Positions 26,830 to 64,000 of a stretch of 64,000 bases of DNA are shown piece by piece. The notes beneath the pieces were generated by a model. That model searched no databases and was not told the DNA's origin. It saw nothing but the letters and a program-made list of their open reading frames with translations. Origin of the DNA: Bryoerythrophyllum caledonicum (lineage: Eukaryota > Streptophyta > Bryopsida > Pottiales > Pottiaceae). The translations under genes were made by a program, and so were the position numbers. Each line of letters opens with the position of its first letter. The first letter of the stretch is position 1. The DNA is taken from assembly GCA_963971425.1 (NCBI GenBank), contig OZ020514.1:13397218-13461217 (forward strand). Reading direction: 5' to 3'.

Positions 26830-26833
26830 TTAA
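26830..26833. repeat. TTAA target duplication, left
   Basis: TTAA directly abuts the inverted terminus AACGG; the same TTAA abuts CCGTT at 43235-43238. Confidence 0.8.
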
Positions 26834-26861
26834 AACGGATATTTAACGAAATATGGACAAA
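26834..26861 (+). repeat. Left terminal inverted repeat of TTAA transposon
   Basis: Starts AACGGATATTTAAC and ends ATATGGACAAA. It matches the reverse complement of 43207-43234 at 27 of 28 positions. A further TATGGACC occurs shortly inside, a possible subterminal repeat. Confidence 0.88.
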
Positions 26862-27100
26862 TCGATCAATTATGGACCAAAAAAAAACTTAGACTCGGAT
26901 TTCATTTCCTATATCATACAAAAAACAAGAAAATATGGGCTAAATCCTAAACATATACATTCGAAATTGCGTGCCACCAAACATTGTCCCACACAAAACT
27001 ATAATAACTGTCTCATATCATAATAAAGCCAGAAATAAAGGTTCAATGAGAGGTGGTCAACATGAAAACGAAGAACGTGGTTTGTCCTACGAGTCCAGAC

Positions 27101-27117
27101 GTCGGCCGGCAGCCGAC
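27101..27117. repeat. 17-bp palindrome copy 1
   Basis: GTCGGCCGGCAGCCGAC, 16 of 17 matches to GTCGGCTGSCAGCCGAC; about 270 bp inside the left end of the transposon. Confidence 0.85.
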
Positions 27118-27291
27118 GGACAACAGAGACTGTAGTGGACTACAAACAAAGAAGGCTCCCGGCAGGCAGCTCGCAAAAATAGTAGCAGATGGCAGAATGA
27201 TCTCCTGAACAATTAGGGAAACACTAAGAGAGTAAAGGCCCGAGTAAGAAGGGCAAACAAATGATCTCCAAACTCGAAATAAAAAAAGGTT

Positions 27292-27308
27292 GTCGGCTGG
27301 CAGCCGAC
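27292..27308. repeat. 17-bp palindrome copy 2
   Basis: GTCGGCTGGCAGCCGAC, exact consensus; T and A flanks extend the dyad to 19 bases. It lies beyond the 3' end of the transposase gene. Confidence 0.95.
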
Positions 27309-28499
27309 AAGAAGAACTTCAATGAAATAGAATGAAATCCTGCCAACAGAATGTTGTGAAAAAACATCCATCAAGTAAGTCCGGCAAAGTGGGTAAAGCA
27401 ATACAAGTGATCAATTTGAAGACAGAAACAAAGAAGAGGAAGTGGGTTTCATAAAAAGATGACTGCCAATTGGCAGCACGTAAAATATTGAAAATATATA
27501 AACGACCATCAAGAGAATACATTGATAACAAAATTCTATTACACACAGCATTCTACAAAGCACAACATCAAAACAGAAAGGTAAAACAAGCTTGACTAAA
27601 ATAAAGTACATCAAGGATAAGATCCGAATAGAGCACGATATTTTAGTCAAAATAAATGTTACATTTGGAGGTGCCCCATAGATGGCAGCAGTCTGGAAAA
27701 TCGATTAGAGAAAAGCAACTGCAGGGGACTATTTACAAGCTGAACTACACTTCACATCTACCAGTTCTTGCGCCATGCAGGAGCGTACATATCAGAGTCC
27801 ACGTCCGAACCGGTGTCGCATCCGGTTTCAAATGGATTACTCGAAAAGCTTGAAAACGAATCGCTGTCAAAGTTTCCGGTAGCCCACAAGTCCACCTCGT
27901 CCGATCCATTGCAGTGGAGGTCATCTTCATCAGAGCATCCCAACTGTGCAACGACATGCTGACCGCCATCGTGGTCTGAATCGCCATCATGGTTGGACTC
28001 CTCCTCCTCATCTTCCTCGTTCCAATTCTCCTCATGAACGTCAGTAGACGGAATAGTGCTATCCACAGAGTTTTCAGACACTATACTATTCTGAGACTCT
28101 GCCTCCCTGGCAACTCTGGCCTCATTTGCCTCCCTCTCCTCCCTTTCCTCTCTTGCTCTCCAGACAACCGCCATACTACGAGTCTCAACCATGTCGTCGG
28201 CTAGAAACAGAATCAGACTAAGAAAAGAAGAAATCACTCCAACCTGTGGCAAATATAAACCAAGATACACAAAAACAACTGAACACAATGAGATACTTCA
28301 CATACAGTGAATCCGTGAATTTATAATTCACTTGCCGCAAATTGCGCACCAACAATAATTACTCATGTACAACTACCCATCTACTCGTCATTCTGATACC
28401 GAGCAACACACGTGCCACAGATTTCAGTCTTTCCTTCACACGTACAAAGACTTTGACCACAAAAAATGGATCGAACTGCATATGCAAAATACAGAGGCT

Positions 28500-28516
28500 G
28501 TCGGGTGGCAACCGAC
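28500..28516. repeat. 17-bp palindrome copy 3
   Basis: GTCGGGTGGCAACCGAC, 15 of 17; in an intron of the transposase-like gene. Confidence 0.75.
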
Positions 28517-28667
28517 AAGAATAACACCAACTACTCAGACTGAGATCATGATAGATGAGTTACTTGAAAAATGTATCAATGGCCGAAAGACCGGCAGATA
28601 CTACTGTTCCAGGGAGCATTCAAATTAATATATGATGAACGAATTACATTACAGAAATCATCAACCC

Positions 28668-28684
28668 GTCGGCTGGCAGCCGAC
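28668..28684. repeat. 17-bp palindrome copy 4
   Basis: GTCGGCTGGCAGCCGAC, exact; intronic, 168 bp from copy 3. Confidence 0.95.
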
Positions 28685-29668
28685 CAAGAAAATGCAATCA
28701 TTCGCTACTGCCATGAACAGAGATGCCACTAGCCTCCAAACAAGCCATTGCAGAGCTCGCAGCTTCAGGTGGGATACGGTGGGTCTTTGGAGGCCCACGC
28801 ATATTATGAGACGGGTAGCGATGCGAGAAGAGAACGATACTACAGTTCTGAACATCTGGATCCCTGTGCTCACGCTCCCACCGCCTATTCTAGCACTCCT
28901 TCCCGATGATCTTCTTAGAATCTTTCTTGGTCGTGAGTGGAACCCACCATTCAACCTTAAAGTTTCCGTAGGAATCCCTAGGACTGTGGTTGACGCACTC
29001 CAGTACCCGGCCCATCCACACAGGAAGGTAATGCCCAGTGCAAGGTCGGGAGAGTACAAAATCACCAAGGAGAACATCACGAAATGGATTGAAGGATAAT
29101 TTTGGACGGCTCATCTTGGGGCCGCGGAAAGGGTAAGCGTCGGGTTCATCTTCTCGTGTGACATCCAAGCCGGAAATAATTGCATCCGGTTGTGACGTTG
29201 CGCGAGCATGATCACGCATCCAGTCTGATTTCGGCCAGAATCCTTCTTGCAGACAGTCGGGGTTTGGCGGGAGAGGACCAGATATTAGTTGTAAAAGACA
29301 CTCCCAATAATCAATGAAAGGCTCCATATCCGCGGCATATCGTTTGTCTCGAGCCATGCCCGTCCTCTAGAACTCAATATACTTTGCAATACCGTTTTTG
29401 ATAAAGGACTGCTTCTCGCTGTTTCCAGTCGCTCTTGCAACCTCCTTCTCCTTGTTTCGCTTCGATTCGTTGACATGAACGTCACCCCAAAGCGGCTTAA
29501 AGGGTACTGGTTTTGGATCACCAATCCGAAGGTTAGGATTCCCGAATTCATCCGCCGTCCACATCTTCACAGGCTTATCTGAATGCAATATACAAAAAAG
29601 TTATTCAAAGACAAGAAAGCAATGAAATGGAAGGAATGAAGGACAAAAGAAGCACAAAGGTAAAATCC

Positions 29669-29685
29669 GTCGGCTGGCAGCTGAC
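29669..29685. repeat. 17-bp palindrome copy 5
   Basis: GTCGGCTGGCAGCTGAC, 16 of 17; in an intron of the transposase-like gene. Confidence 0.85.
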
Positions 29686-30937
29686 AAATAAGTAACAAGA
29701 AAATCAACAGAAAATGAATGCAAACAGAACGATGACAAAAACAAATGAGCCTCATCCGGAGGGAGCCATGATGAATCCGTCCCACTTCTCTTGTATCTCA
29801 TGACCAGCCATCCCGCATCTTCACCTTCCTCTTCAACGTAAAATTTGAAAAGGTGCATCTCACCAAGGCCAACAAGCTTATTCTTGCCTTTGTGATGGTA
29901 ATCAGCAATGTAACTTTTGAAATCAGCAACCTCTTGAACAAGTTCAGGAATAAAGGCTACTGTCTTCTGAGAGTCCATGAAAGATTTCATGAGGTCAGTT
30001 AAGCAGGAAATGTTTTTCCGTTTGATGAATTTTGAAAGGTAACTAAAATGCGCGTCAATGTCCTCATGAGTGTGGCCGACAATCAAGAATCCCACAGTCA
30101 CTTCCTTAAAAATTTGTCTGGCTGTGAGAAGCGAACAGAAGGCCATGACGAACCTGTTCTTATTATCCTTTGCAGAGTTATCAAGTTGGAGATACAGCTT
30201 CCGAGGAAGCTTAACTTCCGGTTGAGCGAGCGAAGAAACTGGAAGGGGATCGCCCCTAGCTTCTGGAATCGACGAACTACATTTAGATTTACCACGGAGT
30301 AAAGATTCAAAGAATGAATTCTGAGGTGGACATGTAAAAAGCTGCTTTGACTCACGCACAGGTCGGCGATCCAATGCCCGAAGAACACGGCAAATGGACG
30401 AAATTGTGAAATTGGAGTCCCCAGGCTATAAGGATGTGGAGTAATGTGCATACGCACGGTCGCCGTGATCGTGAGTAAGCATGCCAGTACATGAAATAGG
30501 AATCTGTCCAAGACCTGCTGTTGCTTTCGTAATCCGCTGCATTCTTGGAATGGCCGTCTTTGAAGTGTCCATCTTGTCGTGAATAATGCAGAGAAACTCA
30601 GACGGGTAATTAATGGACTGAGATGTCCATCTGGAGTACACATTACGGCAAGCACTTTGGTAGTTGAGATGCCTCGCCCGATCATCATGTAGTGCTTGCC
30701 ATTCGTCGGACCCGCGAGGATATTTGGCTAGAAACTCAACCAGATAGTCACTCGGTACATCTCAAAAAGTTGCTACCCACGGCCTTCACTTCAACGTTCC
30801 AAAAAACTTCCGTTTCGATCGACTGTCAGCAGATTGCGAAATCAGCTTGACACAGCATTCAGAGTTCACCTGGAATCGAAAGAGATAGCGATCAAGACTA
30901 ATGAAGTAGAATTAATGAGATGCAAAAATAGACATGC

Positions 30938-30954
30938 AACGGCTGCCAGTCGAC
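30938..30954. repeat. 17-bp palindrome copy 6, degenerate
   Basis: AACGGCTGCCAGTCGAC, 14 of 17; between two large exons of the transposase-like gene. Confidence 0.6.
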
Positions 30955-31954
30955 ACAATGGGTTATATGAGCAAGTCAAATGTACAAGTAGTAATAATGT
31001 TAAACCATACCAGGTTGGACATATGACGGAGATGATTCCAGTCCATCGCAGTAGGAAGAACTATCAGAGATGCAACCCTCTTGTTGCCGATGACTCGAAA
31101 CTCATTTGGCATGTGGTCTGCATTATCGTTGATGATTCTGGAAATGGTCCCACGAGCCTGAACAGTCTGAGACCTGGGGCGTAGAATTCCCGCATTTCCA
31201 TGACCACCATTTACGCGTCCGTTCAATGAATCCGATTTATACTTGTAGTATGCAGACTTGGAGACGCCATGAATGCGAAACCACGCAACTTCGCAAACAT
31301 CGACACCATGTAGAGTTATGAAGGGTTTCCGGAAGCCAGGAACATCGTGGAGCTGGCCCTGAACAGCGTACGTAGTTTCACGCCGTTGCTCAAAGCTTGA
31401 GGAGTAGAACTGCTGGCGGATTCTACAAGTGTCCACCCAAAGAAAAATCTTACAGCATCGTCTCGAACAACACTTTTTCGAAATAACAAGCTGACAAGAA
31501 TCTTTGGACTGGAGGAGTCGAAACTTGGTAACAGAAACATCGCACTTCTGCTTAAGCTTCCATTTCATACCTCTGTATGGATCCTTGGCCACCCCCTCAA
31601 GCCCGTCATTTTTACATGTGGCTTGATTGTGCTCAGAGCAGTAGATGAGGCACTCTCACAGTAGTGGACCACCTTCAAGGCGTGTGTGCAAAATCTTCCA
31701 GCGCAGTGTCGTCATCTGAAGATCCTCATGCTCAGAAACAAAGAGTACACCAACGTCAGTGTCACCCAAAACATCCGCATCACATGCTTCATGCGGGAGA
31801 CAAACTTGAATCATCGCCCGCCCAACTAAAGCGAGATTATTGTCGAGCAAATGGCAGTACTTGTTCCTCCATTGTGGTCGATCCGGATACTGAAATTGAT
31901 CACAATTGACCCCAGGAGGGAAGGTTGCTTCAATCGGTGGTTGATTAGTTGAAC

Positions 31955-31971
31955 GTCGACTGCCAGCCAAC
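31955..31971. repeat. 17-bp palindrome copy 7, inside coding frame
   Basis: GTCGACTGCCAGCCAAC, 15 of 17; falls in the open linker region of the transposase-like gene. Confidence 0.6.
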
Positions 31972-32821
31972 GGAACGTCCTCATATCGCTCTTGACATGC
32001 TTTGGAGTCGCTTCCTGAATCCGCATTGAATCCTGTGGACACTTGAAAAGTGCTATCATCATAGATCCTGTCCCTGCGATCGTCGTCATCCGAAGCGCCT
32101 GACATCTTACCCACTGAATATTCATCAAATGAGGAGTATCCAGTGTCGTCACCGACACGCATGGGGCGAACTCGATAGCCACTCCAGAGAACAAGGTTAC
32201 CCACCGTGTCACCAAGCGTGATCACCTGAGGGAGCTCGCACTATGCGGTATGAGTGAGGAACTTAACATTTACTGTTTGGACTCGGACAACCAGAAAAAA
32301 CTATGAGGAATTAGGAACCCTTCCCACGATCCCTTTGGTGAGCACTCGTCGATAACTCCAACGCCTGCACAACATTTGTGACCCATGACATCAACAAGGA
32401 GGGCAACCTTCATTCCGTCACGAAGGTTCAGAAACGACAGAACTGGTTTGATATCCTCAACGGGTTGCAATATGGATTCTGGTTGATCCTCATTGAGTTC
32501 GTCGATGATAGCGAATGGACGCAGGTCAGCTGCATCCCAATCGATTGACCGGACAGAGCATTTGCGAAGCATGGATAGTCCATCAATTGGGAACGAAATG
32601 GGCATTTCCATCGAATCGGAAACATCGATTACCTTGACACGAATAATCCATGGATTCCTCAGAATGATTTTTTGAACAACTGCGCGTCCAGCATAATAGA
32701 GACCTGAGTGAGTTAGGGCGACTTGAACACCTTTGCGTGGCTTCCATCGACCTGATTTTCCGTTCTTCATAAACGATAAAATGGGTCCGCAGTCCATGAT
32801 CGAGAATGCCAACTAGGCTTC

Positions 32822-32838
32822 GTCGGCTGGGAGCCGAC
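32822..32838. repeat. 17-bp palindrome copy 8
   Basis: GTCGGCTGGGAGCCGAC, 16 of 17; just upstream of the first ATG of the transposase-like gene. Identical on the other strand to the variant at 41009. Confidence 0.85.
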
Positions 32839-34186
32839 AAAATTTGTCGAAGATATCAACCAATGGATCCAGCTCGAGAACAGCTCACAAATAGGGAGTG
32901 TGTGAATGCATGCGTCACAGAGTCAAAACTGATGCATTAGGTTTTTGGATTAGGGTTCAGGATTAGGGTTTTAAGTTTCGGGTGAACTTCCAAAGGATTT
33001 CAGTGCTTTTGCATGAGACTTGGGAATTTGTGATTCGGAAAGAGCATGTGCGTGATTTCTTCGAATGCAGACACAAACTGGGAAGGAGCACTTTTGTACA
33101 CACATTCGGTTTCCAGTGTTTAGGGTATCAAGACTTCAGGTAGTCAGGTGATCAACGCAGAATCAACGTTAAGGTGAGGCAACAAGGTCGACTTACATAG
33201 TATCAAATTGCTACTCAAAATCTAGAAAGCTGCAGGACAATACAATGAGTTTACTGAACATGGAATCTGAGCTCTAACCGGAGAAAGCATTGGACTTAAT
33301 TGAACCAGACATGATCGCCTACACCATAAATGAACGCCTACTTCCAGAAAGTGCTTGTCATCGCGCAACAGGTAGAATGCTTGAATGCTAAATACAGCCA
33401 GTGCAGAAAAGTGCAAAGCGGACGATCTAAGCTCAGACAATAACTATACTACACGAAAGTGTGTGAGAGCAAGTGCAATAAAGAGAAGCAGACGAGAAAT
33501 GACAGAGGATACGGAGTAGATGCTTTGATATCCCTCTCTCAGCTGAACAATGTGCGCGAAAGTCGATTTTGAAATTTTGCGCCAGAAACACCTTCGTGGA
33601 TTTGCGCCCAGAAATTTGCGCGCATTCATTCTCGGACTTCAAATTCAAATTCGAACGGAATCGAATGTGAAATTTCAACACGAAACTTCCTTGCGAAATT
33701 CGAAAAGATTTTTTCAGAGAATCAAAAACAAAATATAAATGACGAGGAAGAATGAGTCGAATCCGAAAGCCAAACTAAAAAGAAATTTCAAAAAATCAAA
33801 GAATATAGAAAAGAGACATTTAAGAAAATCTAAATTAGAATATTAAAAAGAAAGTTACATCAGATCAAAAAAACGACAAGTAAATCTGAATATTGGAAAA
33901 TTATAAAATAAATTTAAATGAAATTGAAAATGCTAACTGCAAAACTAGCCAGTTGGATGAAAACTGACAGACTACCGAGACTATCAGACAGTCAGACTAC
34001 CGAGACGCTTCGATGGCCTTTCGATTAAGGACGAAAGTTGATCGAATGGTCGCGGCGTTCAGATTGTAGGACGTGTAAAAGGTCAGGCTTCCACCAAACC
34101 GGGTCATTTGCAATCTACTCTTCCTGGTTTAGTTAAGCAGCTTCAGGAATAGGTTGTAAGACTTTTCCTTGTTTAGGACTGAATCC

Positions 34187-34203
34187 GTCCGCGGCCAGCC
34201 GAT
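34187..34203. repeat. 17-bp palindrome copy 9, degenerate
   Basis: GTCCGCGGCCAGCCGAT, 14 of 17. Half-sites reading CCAGCCGAC and ACAGCCGAC follow near 34,295 and 34,315. Confidence 0.55.
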
Positions 34204-34360
34204 GTAGTGTTTGCGGAAGTTGAAGAAAGCAGTGGAGGAGCACCCAGCAGGCGGAACGAGGCGGAGGAGCTCGAGCGCTAGAGTCAAAGTGACCAGCCGA
34301 CGGGTTTTTTCCAACAGCCGACAAAATGACGTCAGTCGATAAGTATAATTCTCTTTCACC

Positions 34361-34377
34361 GTCGGCTGCCAGCCGAC
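34361..34377. repeat. 17-bp palindrome copy 10
   Basis: GTCGGCTGCCAGCCGAC, exact; 167 bp before the cargo gene start. Confidence 0.95.
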
Positions 34378-34480
34378 AGCAAGCTGTATATATTTTGGAT
34401 TTTTCAATTCTTAGTTCCATTGAATGAAGTAATGTTATATATTGTAGCAATTGTGCTCTGTTCCAATGGTAATCTTTAGT

Positions 34481-34497
34481 GTCGGCTGCCAGCCGAC
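34481..34497. repeat. 17-bp palindrome copy 11
   Basis: GTCGGCTGCCAGCCGAC, exact; ends 30 bp before the ATG at 34528, 120 bp after copy 10. Confidence 0.95.
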
Positions 34498-35911
34498 GAC
34501 GTTCTACTCGGATGTGGCTCACGAGCAATGCTCGCTATTTTGTTGCGTAGGTTGAGTAAGCTGAAGTGGCTGTTTGGGCCTTGTATTAGTGAAGACGAGG
34601 CAGTCTGGCTCGATAATCAGGTACCGAATGCGACATTCGAGGCTCGTCCTGAATTGACCGAATGGGGCATTACCTGGAGGCTAGGGGAGGTGACTGAAAT
34701 GGGAATCAACGGGAAGCACTTGGGCAAGAGTTTTCTTGGTGGAAACCTTGTCGCCGTGATGGATATTATAGAAGATCCTGAGGACGATGACTGTATTCGA
34801 CTCCTACTAAAGGTGAAGGTTCGAGTTGCCGACGACGACCCGGAGTCCTATGCTGTTCGAATTCGCTGGGCCCTCTACTCACAGGAGCTTTGCACGTCAG
34901 CACAGGAGGTGGGCATGCAGTATACCGACTTGCACCCAGAGAGCCGCGCGGAATTGGTGGAATGCTTTATGCAGGCGAAGGACCAGAGAGTGGCACTCAA
35001 TGGCGGATCTGAGGGGAATGGCAGACGTAAAGCTGCAAAGAAGCCTAGGGCTTCAAAAAAGGCTAGCAATTCTGCGCTGACTGTCGTTGCTATGGCACCT
35101 GATCCGGCTCCCAATAAGCGGGCGTCTAAGAAAATTGCGAAGGTGAAGAAGGTGGCCGAAGCGCTGGTATGTCTGAACAACCTCTCATCCAATACCAACA
35201 GTAAGGAGGTCGAAGAGATGTACAACACGGTCGAGAAAGGATTAGGGCGTTGTTATCCGTTTGGGCAGTAGGTTCTGCCAGTAAAGATTCATTCGTCAAA
35301 GATCCACCTTGCGCCCCATGGAATGGTTTACCGTGAACTCATCGAAAGGTGCCTCGACCAGCTTCGAATCATCTACAAAGCTGTTGGTCCTTGGCGGGCA
35401 AAACCGCCACTATACTGCGTTCCTCTGCGTGCTCCACCAGGTTCTACTCAAGATGGCAAGGAGTTAAAGGGTATGGAACTTCTTCGCAGGAGCGTGCCAA
35501 AAATGATGGAGGACCAAGTTCATTTCGGCGGTCAGATGTACAAGTGGTATGAAGAACCAAATTATCATTGGTTCATCATTGGTGGGCAGCACACATATAC
35601 TGTGTGTAAGGAGCTCGGAGTGATGGAGGACCCCAAATCGTCGAAAGCTAAGTATTTCATGGAGTGGGACATTATTGTACTCTGGTCGAATACTGAAGAC
35701 GACCTGGTGAAAATTTCGAACCTCTTGAACGTTGATGTTGCCGAGAAGAAAGCGGAAGAGACCTACGTTCCCTAGCTTCGTAGAATGAGGGAGAGGTGGA
35801 TTGAGCTTCGTCGCGTTGACAAGCTTCAAGACCATGCTGCCTGGAAGGTACTTTTAGTGCTCACTTGTTTGTTCATGCTCATCTTGTTGTTTGGCTTCAG
35901 TGTATCTGACT

Positions 35912-35928
35912 GTCGGCTAGCAGCCGAC
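35912..35928. repeat. 17-bp palindrome copy 12
   Basis: GTCGGCTAGCAGCCGAC, 16 of 17; in the middle of the first intron of the ParB-like gene. Confidence 0.88.
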
Positions 35929-37351
35929 GGCCTTACATGTGTTGGAACCTGACTCTATTCATCGTGATTGTTGCAGGATTTTTGCAAGAATCGCCTCACT
36001 GTGATTATGAGTAAGGCTAAAGACGTGGAGACCCAGAAGCTACCCCTTGTTTTTGTTCCTGATGATCTCTACAACAAGTGGCAAGTGGTTTTCACCGCTT
36101 GGAAGATGGGTTAATTACTTGGGGAGAACGGTCAACCTCCTCTTCAGATTCCACGAATGCCGCAGCGGGACATCACGCACACGGACCTTTCGTACCTCGT
36201 CAACCTACGTGATGAGGACTCCATGAAGCTCGCGGAGGCGATTCTCGATAAGAAGGTGTATATTAAGGTGAACGCAGGAAAGGAGAAGGGGGCTATTGGT
36301 GTGTCAATGAAGTCGTGGGTAAAGGATGTAAAGATGAACTACATCGTCAAGAACGAATTGATGCTGAAGTACCGCGATTATCCACTAAAGAAGCCTGGAG
36401 AGTCCGCATATGTCCCTTGGGCGTATGAGCAGTTTACGTTGCTTGCCGCTGAGAAGGGTATCAACGATGAAACCCTTGATAACATCCGACGCGAATTCGA
36501 GTAGTCTGATGCTGGCTCAGCATTCTTGAAGGGGAGGAACAACGGGATTACTCCAATGACCAACGAGGCCCCGCCCGAGTTCTAGACGGCAGTAAAGAAG
36601 TACGCCTGTTTTTTGTGATGAGGATCTGGTTGATGAGTTTGCTATTTGCTTTGATATTCGTGTTGCAAAGGGGCTTGTCGAACTGGTGAAGAAGATTGAC
36701 GACAAAGGAGACATGCAACTCAAGAAGGGAGCTCGCGAGATGTTTGTTGTGTTTGGATTCGACGAAGCCGGGGAATCGATCTTTATAGGCAAAGACGGGC
36801 TCAAAGCAGTTGTGCAGAGGGTGCTGCGAGTGAGTGATGATGAACAGTCTGAGATTTTCGCTCCTACAATTCTTATTACCGACGACAACTCTAGTTTCCA
36901 AATCGAGTCGGAATGTCGCAGTTCGACAGGAATATGTGCCGTCCACACAATTCGCTACCTCCCTGACAGTAGCCGGAAGTTCAAGGTGTCGGCCATGCAC
37001 GACAGACCTCTGGCTAACTTCGGAATACTCTACAACAAACCTAGTGATGAGCGTGAAAGATTCACCCAGTTCAAGAAGGTGACGGGACTGACGAAGCCTC
37101 TTAATCCTGTCTATGACGACGCTGCTTCGCCCTCGACCGAGAGCTAGTGTGGAGATGTGTGCAATCCATGCATGGGTTTGCTCACCGCAATATTGAGTTC
37201 CACCTTAGCGGTGAAGGAATCAAACCTGACTGTCTTCAATGCATGGGGTGGTGGTAATGTCACTGCCTTGGCCTTGGTTGGTTTCCTTAACCCTTGTTGT
37301 GCTTGCTCTTTTTTTTTATCCTGCATTTACCAATTCTTGTCATTGCATGTC

Positions 37352-37368
37352 ATCGGCTGGCAGCCGAT
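37352..37368. repeat. 17-bp palindrome copy 13, paired end change
   Basis: ATCGGCTGGCAGCCGAT: both outermost bases differ from consensus yet remain complementary. It lies in an intron that ends TTTTTTCTCAG at 37416. Confidence 0.88.
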
Positions 37369-38467
37369 AGTTTTTTGCAGCAGGTTTCTGACTTATCTTC
37401 TCGTATTTTTTCTCAGCGGGCGAAAGCAACTGTGATTGAGTTTGTGCGTGAGGAAGCTGACATTGCTATCGCGAAGGAGCGCGTTAAGAACATGTCGTTT
37501 CTCCCGCAGCCGTCTGGTGTTTCTAATCGAATCACCTGGCCTCAGCCGTCGAATTCGACATTTGTTGTTACCCAACTTGGAGAGACTTCTGGGCCACCGC
37601 CAAAGGTTGTGGAAGACGATGAATTTTCTCGTCTTGCTTGGAAGGTTGTGGATGAGTTTGTGGTTCAATCTACCCAAGCATCCATGTCACGGAATTCGTT
37701 GGATGTGTATGATTTATCGGACGACCAGACTTCTGATCGTGATGTCCAGATAAATGAAGAGAAGACCAATCTTGACCATCTGATTACCCATATCGTCCAA
37801 GGCCCTCAGTCATCCATGCCGGTTGTTTTGCCTACAATAGTGGAAGAGGCGATGCCTTCCGGGTCTGTGGTCATCAATTTGGCCGAGCAACCGCAAGTCG
37901 AAACAGTTGTCCGGACTGGCGTCTCATCTGTAGCGGGTACTAATGCAAAGACTGTCCATCCTCCGAATCTCGCAACGGACCCTACTGCCCGAAGATCGAT
38001 TACTCGAGATTCTCGAGTTGTCCCGCCGGGACCTAAGAATGAAGTTCCCGTAATTTCAACGGGTACTGGCGTCCCTCTTGGAAGCCCTAAAGCAAAGAAG
38101 GCAAAGACTACCAGCAAAACTTCAGGGAAGAAGCGGGCGACATCACCATCGGCAAAGACGAAGGGTTCTGCTGCAAAGCGTGGTTCAAGAAGCTATTCTT
38201 CTTCCAGACCGAACACCCCAATGATCCCCGAAGGGGAAGATCTCCCAAACGAGTCCCTGTCTCATGTCGTGGATCGCGCAGGCAATCCATCTGGAGGTTA
38301 GTTTTATAGTTAGCTTACAGTAGGTTCAGAATTTAGTGACCTAGCGTGCAACTAATTTTCTGAAATATTTATAAACCCATCATGATTTTGTGCTGGGGTA
38401 CACTGCTAATTTTATGTTTGATTTTCTGAATTATTCTCTGACCTTGTCTAATCTTCTGAGTCGGTTC

Positions 38468-38484
38468 GTCGGCTGGCAGCCGAC
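38468..38484. repeat. 17-bp palindrome copy 14
   Basis: GTCGGCTGGCAGCCGAC, exact; in the intron or spacer between the basic tail of the ParB-like gene and the first FCP1-like module. Confidence 0.95.
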
Positions 38485-38532
38485 CACGGATCTAATGTCC
38501 TTTAATGGTCTTTCTTTAAATCAACTGATTAG

Positions 38533-39504
38533 GGGACTAGTACTCCTGTACTTGCTGCTTCTGGTGCAGTGGAGCAGGTTGGTGCAGATCGAGAATCCGA
38601 AGCGTTTGAGCACATGGTTCAGGTGGATTTGACACCCCTTAAAGATTACTTCCTTGTACTTGAATTGAATGGTTTGGTTCGCACGCATGGCGCTGACCGT
38701 GTTACAAAGTTCCGGCCTCACACCCAAGAATTTCTCAAGTACTGTGTTGATAATTTTACTGTCGTGATTTAGAGTTCCGAAAGTCCGGCTGGAGTGGGGA
38801 CTCTTCTTAACGACCTGCAAGATCAGTTCAAATTCATTCTTCAAAGAATCAAACATGTCTTCATTAATACCCTTTGCGACGTAGCTCGGTATTCTATCGA
38901 TGGCAAGAAGTTCTACCTCAAGAGGCTATCAACATTATTTCTTCGTTATGGGGATTTGATAGGGAAAGGAGCCAATAGCACCAACACCCTCCTGATTGAC
39001 GTTCATCCGTACTCGAACGTCAAGAATTCTCCATATAACGCCATTCATCCCATACCCTACACTCTCACTTCAACTGAGACTGCCAAAGAGAGTAGGCAAG
39101 CCCTCTCGGTGATAACTTCCTTTCTGAGTGCGATGAAGGAAGTGGGCTGGACTATACCCTTGTACACCTCAACTGTGGACCACCTTATCGTGGTGAAGAA
39201 GTTTGTCTTGCCCTTTCAAAGTGACAAGCATCGTCGTCCTCGTCCTCAAGTTGCGAATCCGGAGTTGAATGATGGGCTCTCAGCGAGTGTAGACGTGGTC
39301 TTGCCTGATGTTGTTGTCGTCTCTCATGTGCCTTTCGGCCGCAGGGTGACCTTTCTTGAACCTAAGCCTGTCGACCCTTATAAGACTCGGCTAGTAGCCG
39401 TCCCGGGGAACCCTCGGTTGCTTCCTGGAGAACCCAAATGGGAGCAGTTTGTTTGGTCCTTTCCAAGCGAGAAGCGTCCAAGGTCACTTCCAAGTAGACG
39501 TTAG
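38533..39504 (+). pseudogene. FCP1-like pseudophosphatase module 1
   Basis: HAD-fold module of the FCP1/NLI-interacting-factor type. It reads YFLVLELNGLV (about 38,645) where active enzymes have DxDxT, then KFRPHTQEFLKYC, a Trp-loop position and TLLIDVHPYSNVKNSPYNAIHP (about 38,985-39,055), matching the usual DDSPxxxxxNPxNAI motif. Both motif I Asp are absent (E and N), so phosphatase activity is unlikely; a binding role is inferred. A TAG at 38770 stands where sister modules have Trp (VxxWS). A tail with GEPKWEQFVWSFPS follows and recurs in modules 2 and 3. An acceptor TTAG lies before 38533. A palindrome and an AATAAA follow the stop at 39504. Confidence 0.7.
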
Positions 39505-39512
39505 ATCAATCC

Positions 39513-39529
39513 GTCGGCTGCTAGCCGAC
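39513..39529. repeat. 17-bp palindrome copy 15
   Basis: GTCGGCTGCTAGCCGAC, 16 of 17; nine bases after the stop of module 1. Same variant as 35912 on the other strand. Confidence 0.88.
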
Positions 39530-39630
39530 GCTTAAATTCATTACATTTCTTTTCATGACATTCGTCACGACTATGGAATTATATTTTTTGTTTGCACATA
39601 GATATTATCTTTGTGTGAATGTTTACCCCT

Positions 39631-39636
39631 AATAAA
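39631..39636 (+). promoter_or_regulatory. Possible poly(A) signal after module 1
   Basis: AATAAA about 130 bp after the stop of module 1. A single hexamer in AT-rich DNA is weak evidence; it matters only because the same order recurs after module 2. Confidence 0.3.
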
Positions 39637-39716
39637 CATCGATTGTAATTATTTCAAGTTCCTATGCACTTGATGGATTCTTAATTCATGCATCGTCATC
39701 CATTCATTTCTTCAGG

Positions 39717-40429
39717 TTGACTCTGGAGTTGGCGACGTAAGTGAGTGGTCTTTATCGCTCCGCGCCGGACCATCTGAGAAGGTCAATAAGTACTTCCTTG
39801 TCTTATCCTTGAACGGTCTCTTAATGGCGCAAGGTGTTGGAGCCCACAGGAAATGGCATACCATCTTTCGGCCGATCCTGAAAGAGTTTCTCGAGTTCTG
39901 TGTTTCCAACTTCACTGTGGCAGTTTGGAGTGACCAATCCAGCTCTTTTCTGAAGTTACAAATGATAGCTCTCAAGGGACAGTGTAGCATCGTTAGAGAA
40001 ATTAGACATCGTTTCCACAACAATTCCTGCGACACAGCGGCGACATCGTTCAACGGCCGGACTCTTTATATTTGAAGGCTTTCTACTCTGTTTTTGCATC
40101 CGTCCGGCCTGTTAGGCACTAGAGCAAATATCCTAAACAATCTTCTTCTCGACTGCTGTCGTTTTGCTGATGTCCGGAACAGTCCCCTCAATGTCATGCA
40201 TCCCTTGACGTTCGATCTGACTTCGAAGGAGACCCTGAAGAATGTCGTTCTTCCTACTGTTGTTCAGTTCTTTTCCGGTTTGGTTTCTTCGGGATTGCCT
40301 GTTCCTGAGTATGTTTGTGAGAAAATCGATTCGACCGGATATCCTAGACTTTGGCCCGATGACCTAAAGTGGGCAGATTACGTCGAAGCTTATCCCAGCT
40401 CGATGCGTCTTAGTATTTCTTCTTCTTAG
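39717..40429 (+). pseudogene. FCP1-like pseudophosphatase module 2
   Basis: Second module, preceded by a TTCAG acceptor. KYFLVLSLNGLL begins at about 39,788, FRPILKEFLEFC follows, then the conserved FTVAVWSDQSSS and LLLDCCRFADVRNSPLNVMHP (about 40,140-40,203). Motif I lacks both Asp (S and N), so it is predicted inactive. An in-frame TGA at 40073 lies before RLSTLF, a block identical in module 1. The tail WPDDLKWADYVEAYPSS parallels module 1. The stop at 40427 (TAG) is followed by a palindrome and AATAAA. Modules 1 and 2 are clearly duplicates; their divergence shows the duplication is old. Confidence 0.72.
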
Positions 40430-40438
40430 GATTGTAGC

Positions 40439-40455
40439 GTCGGCTGGCAGCCGAA
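40439..40455. repeat. 17-bp palindrome copy 16
   Basis: GTCGGCTGGCAGCCGAA, 16 of 17; ten bases after the stop of module 2. Confidence 0.88.
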
Positions 40456-40515
40456 GCCCTCGTATGTTCATTTTGTCTGACCTTTCTTGACATGCTGTAA
40501 ATGTAATTTTTTGGT

Positions 40516-40521
40516 AATAAA
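40516..40521 (+). promoter_or_regulatory. Possible poly(A) signal after module 2
   Basis: AATAAA about 60 bp after the palindrome that follows module 2. Weak on its own. Confidence 0.3.
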
Positions 40522-40597
40522 GCTCTTTTGTTTTATGAACAATTATTTGTGATTGGTGCCTCACTGAATCTATGTATGTCTGCTTTATTGACTTCAC

Positions 40598-41819
40598 ATG
40601 CAAAATTTATTCCTTGAAGTCGGAGTTCCTGGGGATATTTCGCACCAATTTGTAGTTGCGATTGATCCAGGAGACGTTGACTTGACGGATATCTCCCCGC
40701 GCTTCAGCGGCTTTCACTCACTGTTGGGAGACTACGAGAGACTGGAGCATCAAGAATTACCTGATGCCGCTAGCGGTCTTGGATTTCATGTCGATTCTGG
40801 CCAATGTTCACTTCAGCGTGTCGGGGAGCCTGCAGTTGTAATCAAACCTGCTGTCGTAGTTGAGATCGTGTCACCGATGCGTCCTGGGAATGTCGCATTC
40901 CCAGGACCCGCTGTCACATCCGCTGTCACATCCACCCGCTGTCACATCGAGGTGGTAGACACCGACAATTTAGTTTTGAATGGTGCTTGTCCTATCAGTG
41001 TCAATGTCGTCGGCTCCCAGCCGACACCTTCGTCTGCTTCAGTTCCAACAGCCGACCTCAGCTCCGATTTGGTTCACAGGAACATTCAGGTGGGTCCTTC
41101 AAGCTACTACCTCGTCCTTGAACTAAGGGGGCTTCTCTTCGCCGAAAGTTTTGTTTGTCGTGGCAATGCTAAGAAGAAGAGCTTTTATCAGAAATCCAGG
41201 CCTGGGCTTCGAGAGTTCCTTGCTTTCTGCCAGTCGTCCTTTTCGTTGGCCTTTTGGTCTACCGATAATTCCATAGCGATCCATCGACACATGGATCACT
41301 TGTTCGAAGTTTTCCCTGACTTGCGAAAGAACACAAAAGTGTTGGGCACTACCTACTGTGATTCCTCTGCGGCCAAGAATCCCTCGACTTTAGGTGTGCC
41401 GCTGCTGAAGAGGTTAGCCCGAATGTTTTCTGATAGACGCTTTTTAATCGGGCCTGATGCAAATGAGCGGAACACGCTTCTCGTTGATTCCTTTCATCTC
41501 CAGAATATCCTCAATAGCCCCTATAATGCTGTTCATCCTTCTCTATTTCAGTATAATATTCCGGAGATCTCAGTTCTCGGGATGTAGCCTTATCTATTGA
41601 GTGCGTTAGTTCCCTTTCTCTCGGGACTTTTGAAGTCTCGAGTCAATGTTCAGGAGTAGTGCCATGCAAATTGGGAATTTGGAACTTCTCGACTTTACCG
41701 TGCGTCGTTTCAGCATCAAAAGTACAGGGAGGTCATCTATCCCCAGGCCTTGGGTTTCGACGCTCCATACTGTCCCGATGAATTGGAATCGAAGTTGTTA
41801 ATAACCTACTCGAACTAAG
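40598..41819 (+). pseudogene. FCP1-like pseudophosphatase module 3
   Basis: The best preserved module. A long N-terminal linker (40,598-41,090) contains a palindrome read in frame as VVGSQPT. The FCP1-like core then runs from SYYLVLELRGLLF (41,102) through RPGLREFLAFCQSSFSLAFWS to NTLLVDSFHLQNILNSPYNA (about 41,470-41,535). RPGLREFL and the VD...LNxPxNA end motif match the family well, while motif I reads LELRGLL instead of DxDxT. TAG codons at 41585 and about 41,657 precede a tail (YRASFQHQKYREVIYPQALG) that parallels the tails of modules 1 and 2. Predicted to be a binding rather than catalytic domain. Confidence 0.75.
41009..41025. repeat. 17-bp palindrome copy 17, inside coding frame
   Basis: GTCGGCTCCCAGCCGAC, 16 of 17; read in frame in the linker of module 3. 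Confidence 0.8.
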
Positions 41820-42030
41820 TATTCATCTATTCTTGAATGGGCTTTTTCGAGTTTCTATTCCTCTTTATTGCTACTGACAATCAGAAACTGATCCTCCTTT
41901 CTTTGTAATTTCTTAATTTTTGTGATTTTATGATATATTTTCTAATTCCAGCTTTCTTGTGTGTATGTATTGCCTTTATCACATGTCTGTGCTTCATCTC
42001 TAATGATGGTCATGTGCTTTGTTATGCCCC

Positions 42031-42047
42031 GTCGGCTGGCAGCCGAT
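42031..42047. repeat. 17-bp palindrome copy 18
   Basis: GTCGGCTGGCAGCCGAT, 16 of 17; in the spacer or intron before module 4. Confidence 0.88.
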
Positions 42048-42114
42048 TGTACAGTGTTTTCATCTATCCTTAATATTCGGCATCATGACGATTGTCTTCT
42101 TTTTGATTTTCCAG

Positions 42115-42870
42115 GGGTCATCCTTTTATTTCAAATGCTTATATGGAACCCCTTCACCGTATCGAAAGTGTGTTGTCCTCTGTGTCAATGGGCTCCTTTG
42201 CTTTGTAAAACCGCGTGTGCCAACTTCTGGTTCTTGCACTCGTGAGAATATAGTTCGCCAGTCGGGCCTGAAGAAACTTTTTGATATGTTGCTCCCTTGC
42301 TTTAACGTCGAGCTTTGGTCAACGTTGCCGATGGAGGAGTTACAACTTGTCTTGCGGCATATTCTTCCGGTTGGTGTTATGGATAGGCTGTCATTTGTCT
42401 ATAGCAGACGTGACTTAGCGCAGAACAAAAATTTTCCTTGGAGTTACAAAACGATGTCTATTCTTTCTAAGAAGAATCATTCGCGTTCTGTCTGCCTGCC
42501 TCATCAAGTTTTGTTCGTGGATGTGAACCCAAGGTCTCTCAAGAAAAACCCCGACAACATTTGTTTTATTCCCTGGCCGTTTTAGGGTCATTTGAGCCTT
42601 CGAGACAATGACCATGTTATTCCTAACGTGGTGACCGACATCCTTCCCTTCATCCATCCGTTCCACAGATTTTCAAGCGTGCCTGAATATTTGGAGTAAG
42701 CACATCGACCTATCAGGCTCATTGGACAGTTTCAAAGGCACGTGAGTGTGGGCGCACAGTTGTCCAATGGGACGAAATCGATTGGTACTATCGAATGGTC
42801 TTCTCCTTCGGCTGCCAGCCGATGGTCTTCAAATTAGTTTTTGTCCGTGATTTGAAGGATGCATTTTGTA
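42115..42870 (+). pseudogene. FCP1-like pseudophosphatase module 4 and C-terminal tail
   Basis: Most diverged module, after a TTTCCAG acceptor. It reads RKCVVLCVNGLLCFV (about 42,160), LKKLFDMLLPCFNVELWS, then VLFVDVNPRSLKKNPDNICF (about 42,510-42,570), the HAD end motif. A TAG at 42583 separates it from a tail. That tail includes HWTVSKARECGRTVVQWDEI (about 42,725-42,785), conserved in the second element at 63.6-63.8 kb as HWAVSKALEFGRTIVEWDKI. Comparison with that copy shows one missing base near 42,710 here. The last codons run into a palindrome. The end of the cargo block is taken at about 42,870. Confidence 0.6.
42807..42823. repeat. 17-bp palindrome copy 19
   Basis: TTCGGCTGCCAGCCGAT, 15 of 17; at the end of the last exon. 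A decayed counterpart sits at the same place in the second element (63648-63664). Confidence 0.8.
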
Positions 42871-43012
42871 AAGTTCATGAAAGTGAACATTTGTGTTGTA
42901 TAATTTGATTTTGAGGGTTCATGTACGTGTCATTAGTTTCCGTTCAACTTTATTATAGGATGGTTTCTTCTAGGAAGTTGTATTTATTTGTTCTCGAGAT
43001 GTTCACTTTTTG

Positions 43013-43029
43013 GTTGGCTGCCAGCCGAC
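43013..43029. repeat. 17-bp palindrome copy 20
   Basis: GTTGGCTGCCAGCCGAC, 16 of 17; about 205 bp inside the right end. A more decayed copy (about 13 of 17) lies near 43,137-43,153. Confidence 0.85.
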
Positions 43030-43048
43030 ACTGTAATTTGTTCTGATC

Positions 43049-43206: not shown

Positions 43207-43234
43207 TTTGTCCATATTTAGTTAAATATCCGTT
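43207..43234 (-). repeat. Right terminal inverted repeat of TTAA transposon
   Basis: Ends GTTAAATATCCGTT directly before TTAA. It matches the left end inverted except at one position; the neighbouring 20 bases inside (AAAGTCCAG on the other strand) are shared with the element end at 63,187. Confidence 0.88.
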
Positions 43235-43238
43235 TTAA
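43235..43238. repeat. TTAA target duplication, right
   Basis: TTAA abutting the right terminus, as at 26830-26833. Confidence 0.8.
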
Positions 43239-61342: not shown

Positions 61343-63339
61343 TTGGGTAGCCTAGTATGTGGTGGTTTCTTATTTGTCAGAGCTTGAGTGTAGAGTATAA
61401 ATTGGCTAGGAATTTAAAGTTTAAGCACTAGCAATGAGTGTTTGGTGAGTGATTAGAGTGTATAAGCTTGAAGTTGGAGTTTGAGTATGTTTCTAAGTAT
61501 TTTTTAGTATTAAGTGGCTTAGAAGGTGTTTAGGTAGGTTGGAGGGGTGAAGAGATGCACAAAGCATCGAGCTTGCATCTTTTTTCTTGAATAATAAAGA
61601 GGCCAAAACTTTGTATCTTATGTTTTTGAGGTGTATCTTTTTATTAGAGAGGTTTTTTTAGACAATATTTTGAGGCGTGTTAGAGAGAAAAATAATCTAC
61701 GTTTGAGTAGTGGTTTGAAGAAAAAAGATATCTAAAGCAAGGAGAAATGAAGGCCTAAAGCAAAGGGGGTCTAGGGAGTTGACAAGATCGGAGCAGTAAC
61801 TTTGAAGGCTTGGTTCTCAATCCATTTTGGAACTATATTAGTGAGATTTAAAAGCAATACTCTTTAGTAAGTTAGTAATTTTATATTTAGATTTCAAATA
61901 CAAATCGTCTATAAGCTAATAATTATGCTGGTTGGAATAAAGGAAATTTTGTAGGAGTGTTGAATTATAGAGGGTGATTGAACTTTCACCTACATAAGTC
62001 ATATTAACTACCGTACATTTAGCCTTGTGCTTAACTAGATGCACAACAATCTTTACAACAATGCAATACACAAATGACCACACTTGAAGGAGACAAAAAC
62101 ACTATGAACAAAATAGAACAGAAAGAGAGGATTTTGAGGCATCCGTGCAGTGGAAGTGGGAGGCCAAATTTGACCTATGACCGTGGCCGTACCCCCTATA
62201 ACCGTTCGCCAACTTTGCAACCCTTGCCTAATGTCCTACTTACGTAATTAAGAAAGAAAAATGTTCTAAAATTTCAATTTTCTATAACATCTTATAGGTA
62301 ATACCCATGTATTGCCAAGGTAACACTCGCATAATCAAACGATTATTGACTAAGGAAAGGACATTTTTGGTGGTGAATGAACCCTGTGTATGGTTCCTTT
62401 CAGACCATAGATATAGTTGTGTATTTAACAATTGAAACACAAAATGAAAAATATAATTAGCAAGAAAAACCTTTAAATCCATAAGTCATCAAAACCTAAC
62501 ATTTGACATTTGGAGGACATTTCTATATTTGATTCTTATCATGTGCGTTAAATTAATATTCTAAATCACATGGCCTTTAGTGTTATATTCAAATATTCAA
62601 ATTAAACAGATTGTTGTATGTAAATTGTGTAGTATTTTGTATATTTCAAAAAATTGACAACAATTCCTATATATTTCAATTATTATAGATAATGCAATAA
62701 ATATTTTTTTATTCTTCATAATAGATTTCGAATCTGTATTTTATGCTCATTCTATATTTATAAATATAAAAATGGTGCAGGCTCTTAGATAATATATTTG
62801 AAACAAAATATTATTGTTACCATTGGATTATGCATGTCAAGTATGATAAGATCCAAAAATAAAAGTATAATTCATGTGAGTTTATAATATTCCACGCCAA
62901 TAAATGATATGTGAATATAAATCTTTAAAAACTTGAGTTGTGGTATTTAAATATTTTGTAATACAATTGAGTATCGAAACAAAAAGGCTGTATTAATCAT
63001 ATTTCAAGCATGATGACATCAAAGAGAGAATAACCATTAATATCATTCAACCAATAGACATTTATGCATAAGATTGGATCTCTTTTCTAATCTCACTATT
63101 TTAGAGGATGATTTATAAACTCATTGATGCAATTATGACAAGCTGGAAATTTGTCATGAGCAACTTAAACCATATGTGATAATTAAACAAATTTCTCTAA
63201 ATCTAGACAAATCAAAGTCCAAAAATAGAATTAACATTCATAAAATGTGCGAAAGCTTGAGTATAAATTTGTAATAACATCAAGATGTTGTAAATAGTGA
63301 GGAAGGAAATATACTATATTGATAAATACGGAATATGAT

Positions 63340-63356
63340 GTCGGCAAGCAGCCGAA
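63340..63356. repeat. 17-bp palindrome, second element, copy a
   Basis: GTCGGCAAGCAGCCGAA, 14 of 17, about 155 bp from the element end; corresponds in position to 43013 in the first element. Confidence 0.7.
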
Positions 63357-63511
63357 GTAAACTTAGTTAAAATACCAGCAAGAAGTTTTATGCTAACATC
63401 AATCGCTCTCATGTACTCAAAAATACTATTTTGCTGATGAAAAATGACTTTAATACCTTGAACTATTCTAATGATGAAAAATATATTGTATCGATGAAAA
63501 CATTATTCAAA

Positions 63512-63528
63512 GTTGGTGGGCAACCGAC
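63512..63528. repeat. 17-bp palindrome, second element, copy b, degenerate
   Basis: GTTGGTGGGCAACCGAC, about 13 of 17 to consensus, yet still largely self-complementary: GTTGG/CCGAC with one G-T type pair and an altered centre. Confidence 0.5.
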
Positions 63529-63626
63529 AATTAATCAGTAGACTACCCCATAGAAAACTACAAGCTAACTACAACAATGTTGAAGTACTCATCTTTGTTC
63601 AGTAGTAAATTCTTTACTTCGATACT

Positions 63627-63830: not shown

Positions 63831-64000
63831 ATAAGAGATTACTAGATCTTCATTTTGAGGAGTCGAATGACCCTCGAATGTAGGGAAAATTAAAAACGCA
63901 CTCAGGGTTACTTTGAAGTGATCAGAGTTAACATCAACAAAAAGAACTTGATGCGGGTGGCAGACTTTGGGAGAATGCTTCTTCTTTTGAAGGATAGTCA

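Follow-up and report, generated by a model that had tools for sequence, protein, structure and literature searches.

The window, the whole 64-kb stretch of moss DNA that was analysed, contains a 16-kb DNA transposon at positions 26834-43234. Its ends are 28-bp inverted repeats flanked by a 4-bp target duplication, and it carries a DUF7869 gene along with phosphatase-like modules. With the DUF7869 frame lying between inverted repeats that are bordered by a target duplication, the element is a DUF7869-encoding transposon. The window also holds the end piece of a diverged relative, called E63 here. The features other than the single palindromes are as follows:

26830..26833, no strand: left target-site duplication TTAA (4 bp), with TTAA on both flanks
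26834..26861, plus strand: left terminal inverted repeat, 28 bp
28890..32797, minus strand: probable transposase gene with the DUF7869 domain in frame 29601-30425, inferred introns, and in-frame stops
34528..37147, plus strand: gene 1, function not assigned, with lysine-rich stretches and, in the window copy, five in-frame stops before the last
37417..38301, plus strand: another conserved open stretch, basic, with inferred introns at its borders
38573..42783, plus strand: four tandem NIF/FCP1-phosphatase-like modules
43207..43234, minus strand: right terminal inverted repeat, 28 bp
43235..43238, no strand: right target-site duplication TTAA (4 bp)
63183..64000, minus strand: end piece of E63, comprising its inverted repeat, the final coding module, and three palindromes

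The 28-bp inverted repeat has 349 + 361 matches in the genome at up to 3 mismatches, compared with 0 for a control. In all five full copies with both ends readable, the 4-bp flanks match each other while differing from copy to copy (TTAA, ACAT, ATAC, CAAT, and GTTA). The CACTA (En/Spm) superfamily has CACTA termini and a 3-bp target duplication, and membership was ruled out because the element has AACGG termini and a 4-bp duplication. PMC9587614 describes the target duplication of Kolobok and piggyBac as TTAA-specific; both superfamilies were ruled out as TTAA is one of several duplications in the five full copies.

The DUF7869 frame matches profile PF25273 over residues 67-203 (E=4.1e-39). 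Its stops vary among copies and many copies have none, which rules out a variant genetic code. Three of the phosphatase-like pieces match PF03031 with 23.9, 31.2, and 22.2 bits, above the cut-off of 21.8, and the first piece stays under it with 15.0 bits. DUF7869 and NIF alone gave Pfam matches above cut-off in the scanned frames. Two structure predictions for gene 1 reached a mean pLDDT of 33 and 44 and delivered no usable model. Relatives were also sought in viral contigs, in bacterial and archaeal genome contigs, and in phages, where none could be established and one search returned nine single motif matches.

Palindromic sites of the element

Within the element, 20 sites lie at up to 3 mismatches from the palindrome GTCGGCTGSCAGCCGAC. 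The window as a whole holds 21 such matches, the 21st at 63340, whereas 100 shuffles gave a mean of 0.04 and at most 1; with 20 sites against 0.04 expected in the whole window, a chance origin is ruled out. Between 27101 and 43029, five sites are exact, nine have one mismatch, four have two, and two have three, which agrees with the original prediction of five exact and about fifteen near copies. The sites, none of which is assigned to a strand, are listed with those of E63:

27101..27117: 1 mismatch, left end
27292..27308: exact, left end
28500..28516: 2 mismatches, non-coding gap
28668..28684: exact, non-coding gap
29669..29685: 1 mismatch, in an inferred intron of the gene on the minus strand
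30938..30954: 3 mismatches, in an inferred intron of the gene on the minus strand; has a counterpart in family 2 at offset 0
31955..31971: 2 mismatches, within the frame of the transposase; copies C, E, and L031 have it in exact form; has a counterpart in family 2 at offset -1
32822..32838: 1 mismatch, upstream of the transposase, 24 nt from its presumed start codon
34187..34203: 3 mismatches, central intergenic region; degenerate in every aligned copy
34361..34377: exact, central intergenic region
34481..34497: exact, upstream of plus-strand gene 1, 30 nt from its presumed ATG
35912..35928: 1 mismatch, inferred intron of plus-strand gene 1
37352..37368: 2 mismatches, inferred intron
38468..38484: exact, inferred intron
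39513..39529: 1 mismatch, in the non-coding gap that separates phosphatase-like modules 1 and 2
40439..40455: 1 mismatch, in the non-coding gap that separates modules 2 and 3
41009..41025: 1 mismatch, within the frame that codes for module 3; family 2 and the 63-kb element have a counterpart at the same coding place
42031..42047: 1 mismatch, in the non-coding gap that separates modules 3 and 4
42807..42823: 2 mismatches, 24 nt beyond the last conserved codons
43013..43029: 1 mismatch, inward of the right inverted repeat by about 180 nt
63340..63356: E63, 3 mismatches
63512..63528: E63, 4 mismatches
63648..63664: E63, degenerate, place equivalent to 42807

A position matrix ranks the element sites 1-20 in the whole window and the three sites of the related 63-kb element 21-23; because the matrix was trained on the same 20 element sites, independence can be claimed only for the ranks at 63 kb. 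C>T or G>A changes account for 14 of the 23 mismatches. The flanking bases had been described as unshared, which turned out otherwise: in oriented copies a pyrimidine precedes the motif in 20/20 cases and a purine follows it in 16/20. The flanks are thus partly shared and the unit comprises about 19 bp.

On a coding map drawn by ourselves, 18 of the 20 sites are non-coding (P=5e-7), and they occupy inferred introns, the space between genes, and the vicinity of both ends, as had been predicted. Coding frames were said to hold the motif twice or more; they hold it twice (31955 and 41009) and not more often. Sites are separated by 120-1440 bp, mostly near 1 kb, with the centre in both orientations. 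All 12 non-coding gaps of at least 129 bp contain at least one site, and this, together with the inverted symmetry, would suit RNA hairpins of the form GUCGGCU-GSC-AGCCGAC that act from introns or untranslated regions on splicing, stability, or small RNAs. Sites also occur near the ends and in gene-less miniatures, and for this and a further reason given below we regard such hairpins as very improbable.

The transposon could also have captured binding sites for a dimeric host transcription factor and use them to enhance its genes from dispersed positions; sites do lie 24 and 30 nt upstream of the two presumed divergent start codons. It also fits a host factor that searches against Pfam, NCBIfam, and PDB recognised no known DNA-binding domain in the scanned frames. 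On balance a host factor is unlikely, as it does not readily explain the family restriction of the exact places listed, the end sites of gene-less miniatures, and the family-specific forms of the motif that are described in the following.

Distribution among copies and families

The 437-Mb source genome contains the motif 2725 times at up to 2 mismatches, as against 10 times for a reversed control, so that it is far from equally frequent in unrelated DNA. Among the 2725 counted, 68 exact places were listed, and all 68 fall in copies of the element or in miniatures of about 330 bp. The masked flanks of 66 of them match element or miniature copies; the remaining two are a miniature matching copy L011 and a site of the window for which aligned copies exist. 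As far as the 68 listed exact places reach, spread into unrelated DNA is ruled out and other copies of the element carry the motif. The predicted confinement to one element therefore holds within the window, the 63-kb relative excepted, and fails for the genome, where the motif marks a repeat family. Copies of a DUF7869 element, whether full or miniature, can be recognised by it; a literature search by that domain name yielded no described element, so that none was available for comparison.

The gene-less miniatures have kept one palindrome inside each end, 19-36 bp from the inverted repeat. Their retention of just these parts would be understandable if the sites served transposition alone, i.e., synapsis or protection of the 16-kb element, and took no part in its silencing or expression. 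This is improbable given that most sites are internal, occur in every longer non-coding gap and near both start codons, and are in this respect unlike transposase sites that are found at ends only.

Seven of the 15 near copies (29669, 31955, 35912, 37352, 39513, 40439, and 42031) look decayed because one or more of the other aligned copies have them in exact form; the other 8 of the 20 window sites are off-consensus in every aligned copy. In copies A-G a site (up to 5 mismatches) is present wherever its neighbourhood could be aligned, except for C at 27101 and 27292 and F at 31955, and the older copy L033 has no recognisable site at 32822 and 34481. At three sites the centre is swapped between G and C among copies. 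With flanks 0.75-0.80 identical (n=8), the cores reach an identity of 0.87 and retain 11/16 CpGs, compared with 20/51 in the flanks. At a flank identity of 0.90-0.94 (n=20) the cores (0.88) are less conserved than the flanks (0.93), and the same applies at 0.94 and above (n=55; 0.92 vs 0.96). The lower core conservation in these less diverged copies is what CpG decay after insertion would give and shows no positive sign of constraint.

In a second family, of which one copy was analysed in full, 25 sites were found (shuffle mean 0.03), and most arms read GTCGGCG instead of GTCGGCT. The modules of the two families are 41-74% identical in protein. By raw count, the nearest family-2 site lies within 45 bp of the expected place for 18/20 window sites and within 10 bp for 8/20. 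The T7>G/A11>C form occurs at 1003 places in the genome at up to 1 mismatch, as against 0 for the control. Motif type tracks the transposase group (11:0 and 0:8) in the 19 of 24 copies that could be scored, five being unscorable; the association rests on two groups, within which copies are not independent. Two groups that share one genome and carry different versions, with no mixing in the 19 scored copies, argue against a host factor. E63 was considered as an outgroup and then dropped.

At positions 7 and 11 the family-2 arms match in 12/22 sites, where 12.1 would be expected if they were independent, and are mismatched in 10/22 (G with A or T with C). In this one copy paired substitutions beyond chance are not seen, which speaks strongly against an RNA or DNA hairpin as the conserved property and favours half-sites read by a dimer. 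In DNA fetched from the genome, with the sites found as exact omitted, the spacer is 3 in 41/41 inverted pairs (spacers 0-32 considered), and the centre base is G or C in 72/77.

The third role that had been offered besides a dimeric protein and hairpins was a tiny selfish palindrome spreading inside the element; functionless homogenisation by short gene conversion can be considered with it. Where a mixed family-2 site is centred on G or C, it has one form up to strand in all seven cases, and this, like the centre swaps, could result from copying or inversion of the palindrome. On the other side stand the matching places in two such diverged families, the near-complete retention in copies A-G, the family restriction of the 68 listed places, and the fact that no target duplications were noticed at individual palindrome sites. 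Selfish palindromic repeats of the GC-cluster type spread to unrelated loci. For these reasons we consider spread or homogenisation of this kind a poor prospect. That a related family has the palindrome at matching places with the same arm letter changed suggests docking sites for a paired protein made by the element itself.

A putative element-encoded dimer and known systems

The role of binding sites for a dimeric element-encoded protein, one of the three originally offered, fits best because the family-specific change affects both arms, the arms are independent in the family-2 copy, the spacer is fixed at 3 bp, and the miniatures retain the end sites. We therefore favour, as the probable explanation, that the palindromes are targets of a family-specific and probably element-encoded dimeric protein that works like VANC of VANDAL or TnpA of Spm. 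Such a protein would dock as a symmetric dimer, with one subunit on each half-site (YGTCGGCT or YGTCGGCG) 3 bp apart, and each transposon family would most likely encode its own version. Sites beside the inverted repeats may help to assemble the ends for transposition. Through the sites upstream of both start codons and in nearly all non-coding gaps, about 1 kb apart, the protein could cover the element and turn it on or keep it on, in the manner of VANC on VANDAL and TnpA on Spm. Against the dimeric protein it counts that no DNA-binding domain was recognised in the scanned frames, that the cores of less diverged copies are less conserved than their flanks, that eight window sites are off-consensus in every aligned copy, and that a concerted change of dispersed sites could also come from gene conversion.

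According to Hosaka et al. (2017; PMC5735166) and Sasaki et al. (2023; PMC10398659), VANC21 and VANC6 of Arabidopsis VANDAL recognise a short motif that is abundant in their own family and rare elsewhere, lies mainly in non-coding DNA including introns, and differs between related families. The VANC21 sites are described there as 9 bp long (YAGTATTAY), dense, in the same orientation, and arising by tandem repeats. The moss element is similar in that its motif is enriched in its own family (2725 vs 10; 68 listed exact places), is mainly non-coding (18/20), and has different forms in related families. In contrast to VANC21, its sites are 19-bp palindromes that are mostly single, keep their places between families, and form no dense same-orientation tandem arrays. 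Pfam recognised no VANC-like protein in the scanned frames. If the dimeric protein exists, it would add to the cases in which a transposon recognises itself by sequence, and its code would be cleaner than that of VANC, since the dimer site has a fixed length of 19 bp, corresponds almost one-to-one between diverged families, and differs between them by one symmetric base pair. How a transposon protein co-evolves with some 20 target sites could then be tested directly in vitro, and a reason why a large transposon keeps introns would be suggested.

Bacterial ParB-parS comprises several dispersed palindromic sites, and those of the moss element are likewise dispersed and of similar length. It is conceivable, albeit doubtful, that the element coats itself, with its own protein loading at the palindromes and spreading over 16 kb as ParB does from parS. 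Introns would then be docking platforms, the same protein would assemble the ends, and family-specific half-sites would keep the coat off relatives. By eye, the stretch IIGGQHTYT of gene 1 resembles the ParB/sulfiredoxin signature, which is a lead only, as neither Pfam nor NCBIfam matched a ParB/Srx domain in gene 1 and its structure models were unusable.

In En/Spm (CACTA), TnpA is a second element-encoded protein that binds repeated sites near both ends and also activates the element; its sites are short and subterminal. The moss element equally has repeated sites near both ends, which its putative protein would bind. It differs from Spm in its AACGG termini, 4-bp duplications, DUF7869 gene, and internal palindromes.

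Palindromic sites within one DNA transposon

Allowing up to three mismatches, the 17-bp palindrome GTCGGCTGSCAGCCGAC has 21 matches in the 64-kb window (mean of 100 shuffles 0.04), 20 of them within 27101-43029 and one at 63340, which agrees with the original prediction of about twenty copies in one 16-kb element. At five mismatches, ten further weak matches appear, both within and beyond the element. A position matrix built from the 20 element sites places those sites at ranks 1-20 in the window. Ranks 21-23 (63340, 63648, and 63512) all fall in E63, a diverged relative at 63 kb that had been expected to carry the motif; the third-best score of this stretch was equalled in none of 2000 random sequences modelled on the same 830 bp. 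The palindrome had also been taken as the whole repeated unit, with unshared flanks, which has to be amended because the motif is slightly longer: a pyrimidine precedes it in 20/20 sites and a purine follows it in 16/20. C>T or G>A changes make up 14 of the 23 mismatches among window sites. Among the 15 near copies, seven sites show the exact palindrome in one or more of the other aligned copies, and eight (27101, 28500, 30938, 32822, 34187, 41009, 42807, and 43013) are off-consensus in all of them. At 34361, 35912, and 40439 some copies have G at the centre and others C, the pattern that an inversion of the palindrome would leave.

The transposon has the following features:
26834-43234: DNA transposon with 28-bp inverted repeats and a 4-bp target duplication
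about 32797 to 28890, minus strand: DUF7869 gene, probable transposase (PF25273, E=4.1e-39)
34528-37147, plus strand: gene 1, with five in-frame stops ahead of the last in the window copy
37417-38301, plus strand: further open stretch
38573-42783, plus strand: four tandem modules resembling NIF/FCP1 phosphatases

All five full copies with both ends read have 4-bp target duplications (TTAA in the window; ACAT, ATAC, CAAT, and GTTA elsewhere). Introns were deduced from breaks in the conserved frame and GT/AG signals, not from RNA. The name DUF7869 retrieved no paper from the open-licence literature. Its match at G000:C1:27006974 lies inside a stop-free frame of 738 residues, and many other matches are also stop-free; some copies may therefore retain intact protein-coding capacity. 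When gene 1 was used as a protein query, four relatives turned up (sources jgi, lgn, and ena), none with a Pfam domain; a ParB-like signature seen by eye in gene 1 has no profile or model support. Against PF03031, three of the four module pieces score above the cut-off and the first below it. FCP1-type enzymes carry catalytic aspartates where the modules have LELNG, LSLNG, or similar, and the modules may thus be binding modules rather than enzymes. Copies B, D, and E have about 320-360 bp at the left end, including one more palindrome, that are missing from the window copy (27022-27028).

The sites were said to lie in introns, between genes, and near the ends, which holds for 18 of the 20, and twice or more in coding frames, where the number is exactly two. 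Conserved coding stretches, as drawn by the analyst, hold 2/20 sites although they make up 65% of the element (P=5e-7). Each of the 12 non-coding gaps of at least 129 bp has at least one site, and the sole empty gap measures 29 bp. The presumed starts of the transposase gene and of gene 1 each have a site upstream, at 24 nt and 30 nt respectively. Neighbouring sites are at most 1440 bp apart (P=0.0004 under uniform placement, a test picked after the data were seen), an evenness partly explained by the presence of one site per intron.

Genomic distribution and two transposase families

The source genome, which we infer to be that of a land plant, was searched across 437 Mb in 894 contigs. As predicted, the motif is far above background, with 2725 matches at up to two mismatches versus 10 for the reversed pattern; the inverted repeat has 349 and 361 matches versus 0 for its control. 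Contig C1 accounts for all 68 distinct exact places among the matches listed. Their palindrome-masked flanks (~800 bp) match an element or miniature copy at 66, with self-matches removed for the window and miniature L010 only; three places (L031, L033, and copy E) may be self-matches, but these loci match the window element independently. The other two are L010, which matches miniature L011 at 95%, and a window site with aligned copies. Among the matches listed, the motif therefore marks copies of the element or its miniatures and not unrelated DNA at 68/68 exact places. The short stretches fetched last were likewise all element copies (19/19; best matches 79-97%).

Genomic DUF7869 matches (151 reported; 150 of 3207 candidates scored) fall in tiers, and two groups were defined by the reach of the match in the query (226-228 versus 222-225). 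The palindrome also has two forms, T/A (arms GTCGGCT) and G/C (arms GTCGGCG), differing at positions 7 and 11; the latter, at up to one mismatch and with mixed forms included, occurs at 1003 genome places versus 0 for the control. In the first 30.09 Mb of C1, for which the lists of exact places of both forms are complete, 11 of 12 window-group matches have T/A sites and one has none, while eight of 12 second-group matches have G/C sites and four have none. None of the 24 has both (Fisher P=1.3e-5, omitting two matches ending at 198, one with T/A sites and one without sites). Motif form follows transposase group. Because copies within a family are not independent, the association is descriptively strong but does not amount to 19 separate tests.

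The one copy of the second family that was read (C11:24806501-24824500) has module proteins 41-74% identical to the window's, a DUF7869 piece 81% identical, and inverted repeats with 2 and 4 differences over 28 bases. Searching it with GTCGGC[G/T]GSC[C/A]GCCGAC at up to three mismatches gives 25 sites (shuffle mean 0.03, maximum 1). One lies within 45 bp of the exon-interpolated place for 18/20 window sites, and within 10 bp for eight; two pairs of window sites have one common counterpart, and the distances are given without a null model. The coding-frame site of module 3 is present there too, as the G/C form and with a changed peptide.

Half-sites and a putative dimeric reader

Two readings of the symmetry were weighed: a nucleic acid hairpin and two half-sites read by a dimer. 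A hairpin would disfavour mixed arms, and separately read half-sites would not. The second-family copy has 22 sites with G/T at position 7 and C/A at 11 (10 G/C, 2 T/A, and 10 mixed), so that arms match in 12/22 versus 12.1 expected under independence, and the hairpin was rejected as a conserved property. The best reading of these sequences is that a dimer would recognise the two half-sites. Mixed sites whose centre is G or C number seven (two with further mismatches), and all seven have the same form when strand is disregarded; this copy yielded no site of the alternative mixed form.

Exact inverted half-site pairs with spacers of 0-32 were sought in 335 kb of fetched DNA, many stretches of which had been chosen by exact motif matches: 101/101 have spacer 3. 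Centre bases number G 73, C 59, A 3, and T 2. Excluding sites picked by exact match, the spacer is 3 in 41/41 pairs, and the centres of 77 sites are G in 40, C in 32, A in 3, and T in 2. A symmetric reader would treat centre G and C alike.

Miniature copies (four elements of about 330 bp in loci L010-L012, one cut by the locus end) each have related inverted repeats and two palindromes 19-36 bp inward of the 28-bp repeat. L010 and the second L012 copy have common flanks and are thus one insertion; both ends can be read in two independent insertions, L010 and L011, which have 4-bp duplications ATTT and ATGT. Since miniatures resemble the window element in the repeat and palindromes only, a cis-role of these at element ends is suggested.

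The best account of the sites is that a dimeric protein, specific to each family and encoded by the transposon itself, would bind them. This putative dimer would use the end sites for transposition, and through the sites in promoters and introns it would regulate the element or relieve its repression. By analogy, the nearest precedent is VANC, whose 9-bp motif is described as strongly enriched in VANDAL21 and mostly non-coding, the motifs of VANDAL6 being different (PMC5735166, PMC10398659). Unlike the VANC motif, the sites here are palindromic, solitary, regularly placed, and positionally conserved. No such palindrome system was among the matches listed for open-licence titles and abstract openings on transposon palindromes, ParB, Kolobok/TTAA, Sola/Academ, and MITE/introns/moss.

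Conservation and distant relatives

Of 172 site-neighbourhood alignments, 106 were kept after removal of 53 whose site had been located through an exact match and 13 with a gapped core. Cores are better conserved than flanks only in the older copies, a small sample. We read this, with few old copies, as CpG-rich sites decaying fast after insertion and being preserved in the lineage that still jumps.

Core conservation by flank identity (flank identity; n; core identity; CpG kept in core; CpG kept in flank)
<0.75; 1; 0.88; 0/1; 0/3
0.75-0.80; 8; 0.87; 11/16; 20/51
0.80-0.85; 10; 0.89; 17/23; 45/74
0.85-0.90; 12; 0.88; 19/24; 45/64
0.90-0.94; 20; 0.88; 30/38; 92/109
>=0.94; 55; 0.92; 93/111; 282/328

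Counting cross-module matches, the modules of E63 share 28-56% identity with those in the window element, and its last coding part has 66% DNA identity to that element. Its DUF7869 is seen as short pieces (42-63% identical) on the same strand as its modules, the window layout being divergent. Six sites are recognisable: three lie past the last module and two others between modules, and the sixth occupies the coding place of 41009. The second family is about equally distant from the window element and E63, so the comparison does not polarise the change between T/A and G/C.

Elsewhere in the window, about 24860-26260 and 58750-59760 have stretches of sequence in common, among them a 17-base palindrome that is the same at 26011 and 59715, and are perhaps two ends of a larger repeat hosting the transposon and gypsy-type insertions. 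By eye, open frames at 45359-51460 read as a Ty3/gypsy retrotransposon (zinc knuckles, protease, reverse transcriptase, and integrase), and two frame sets at 2484-4520 and 18439-20605 resemble a SWIM-finger MULE/FAR1-type transposase.
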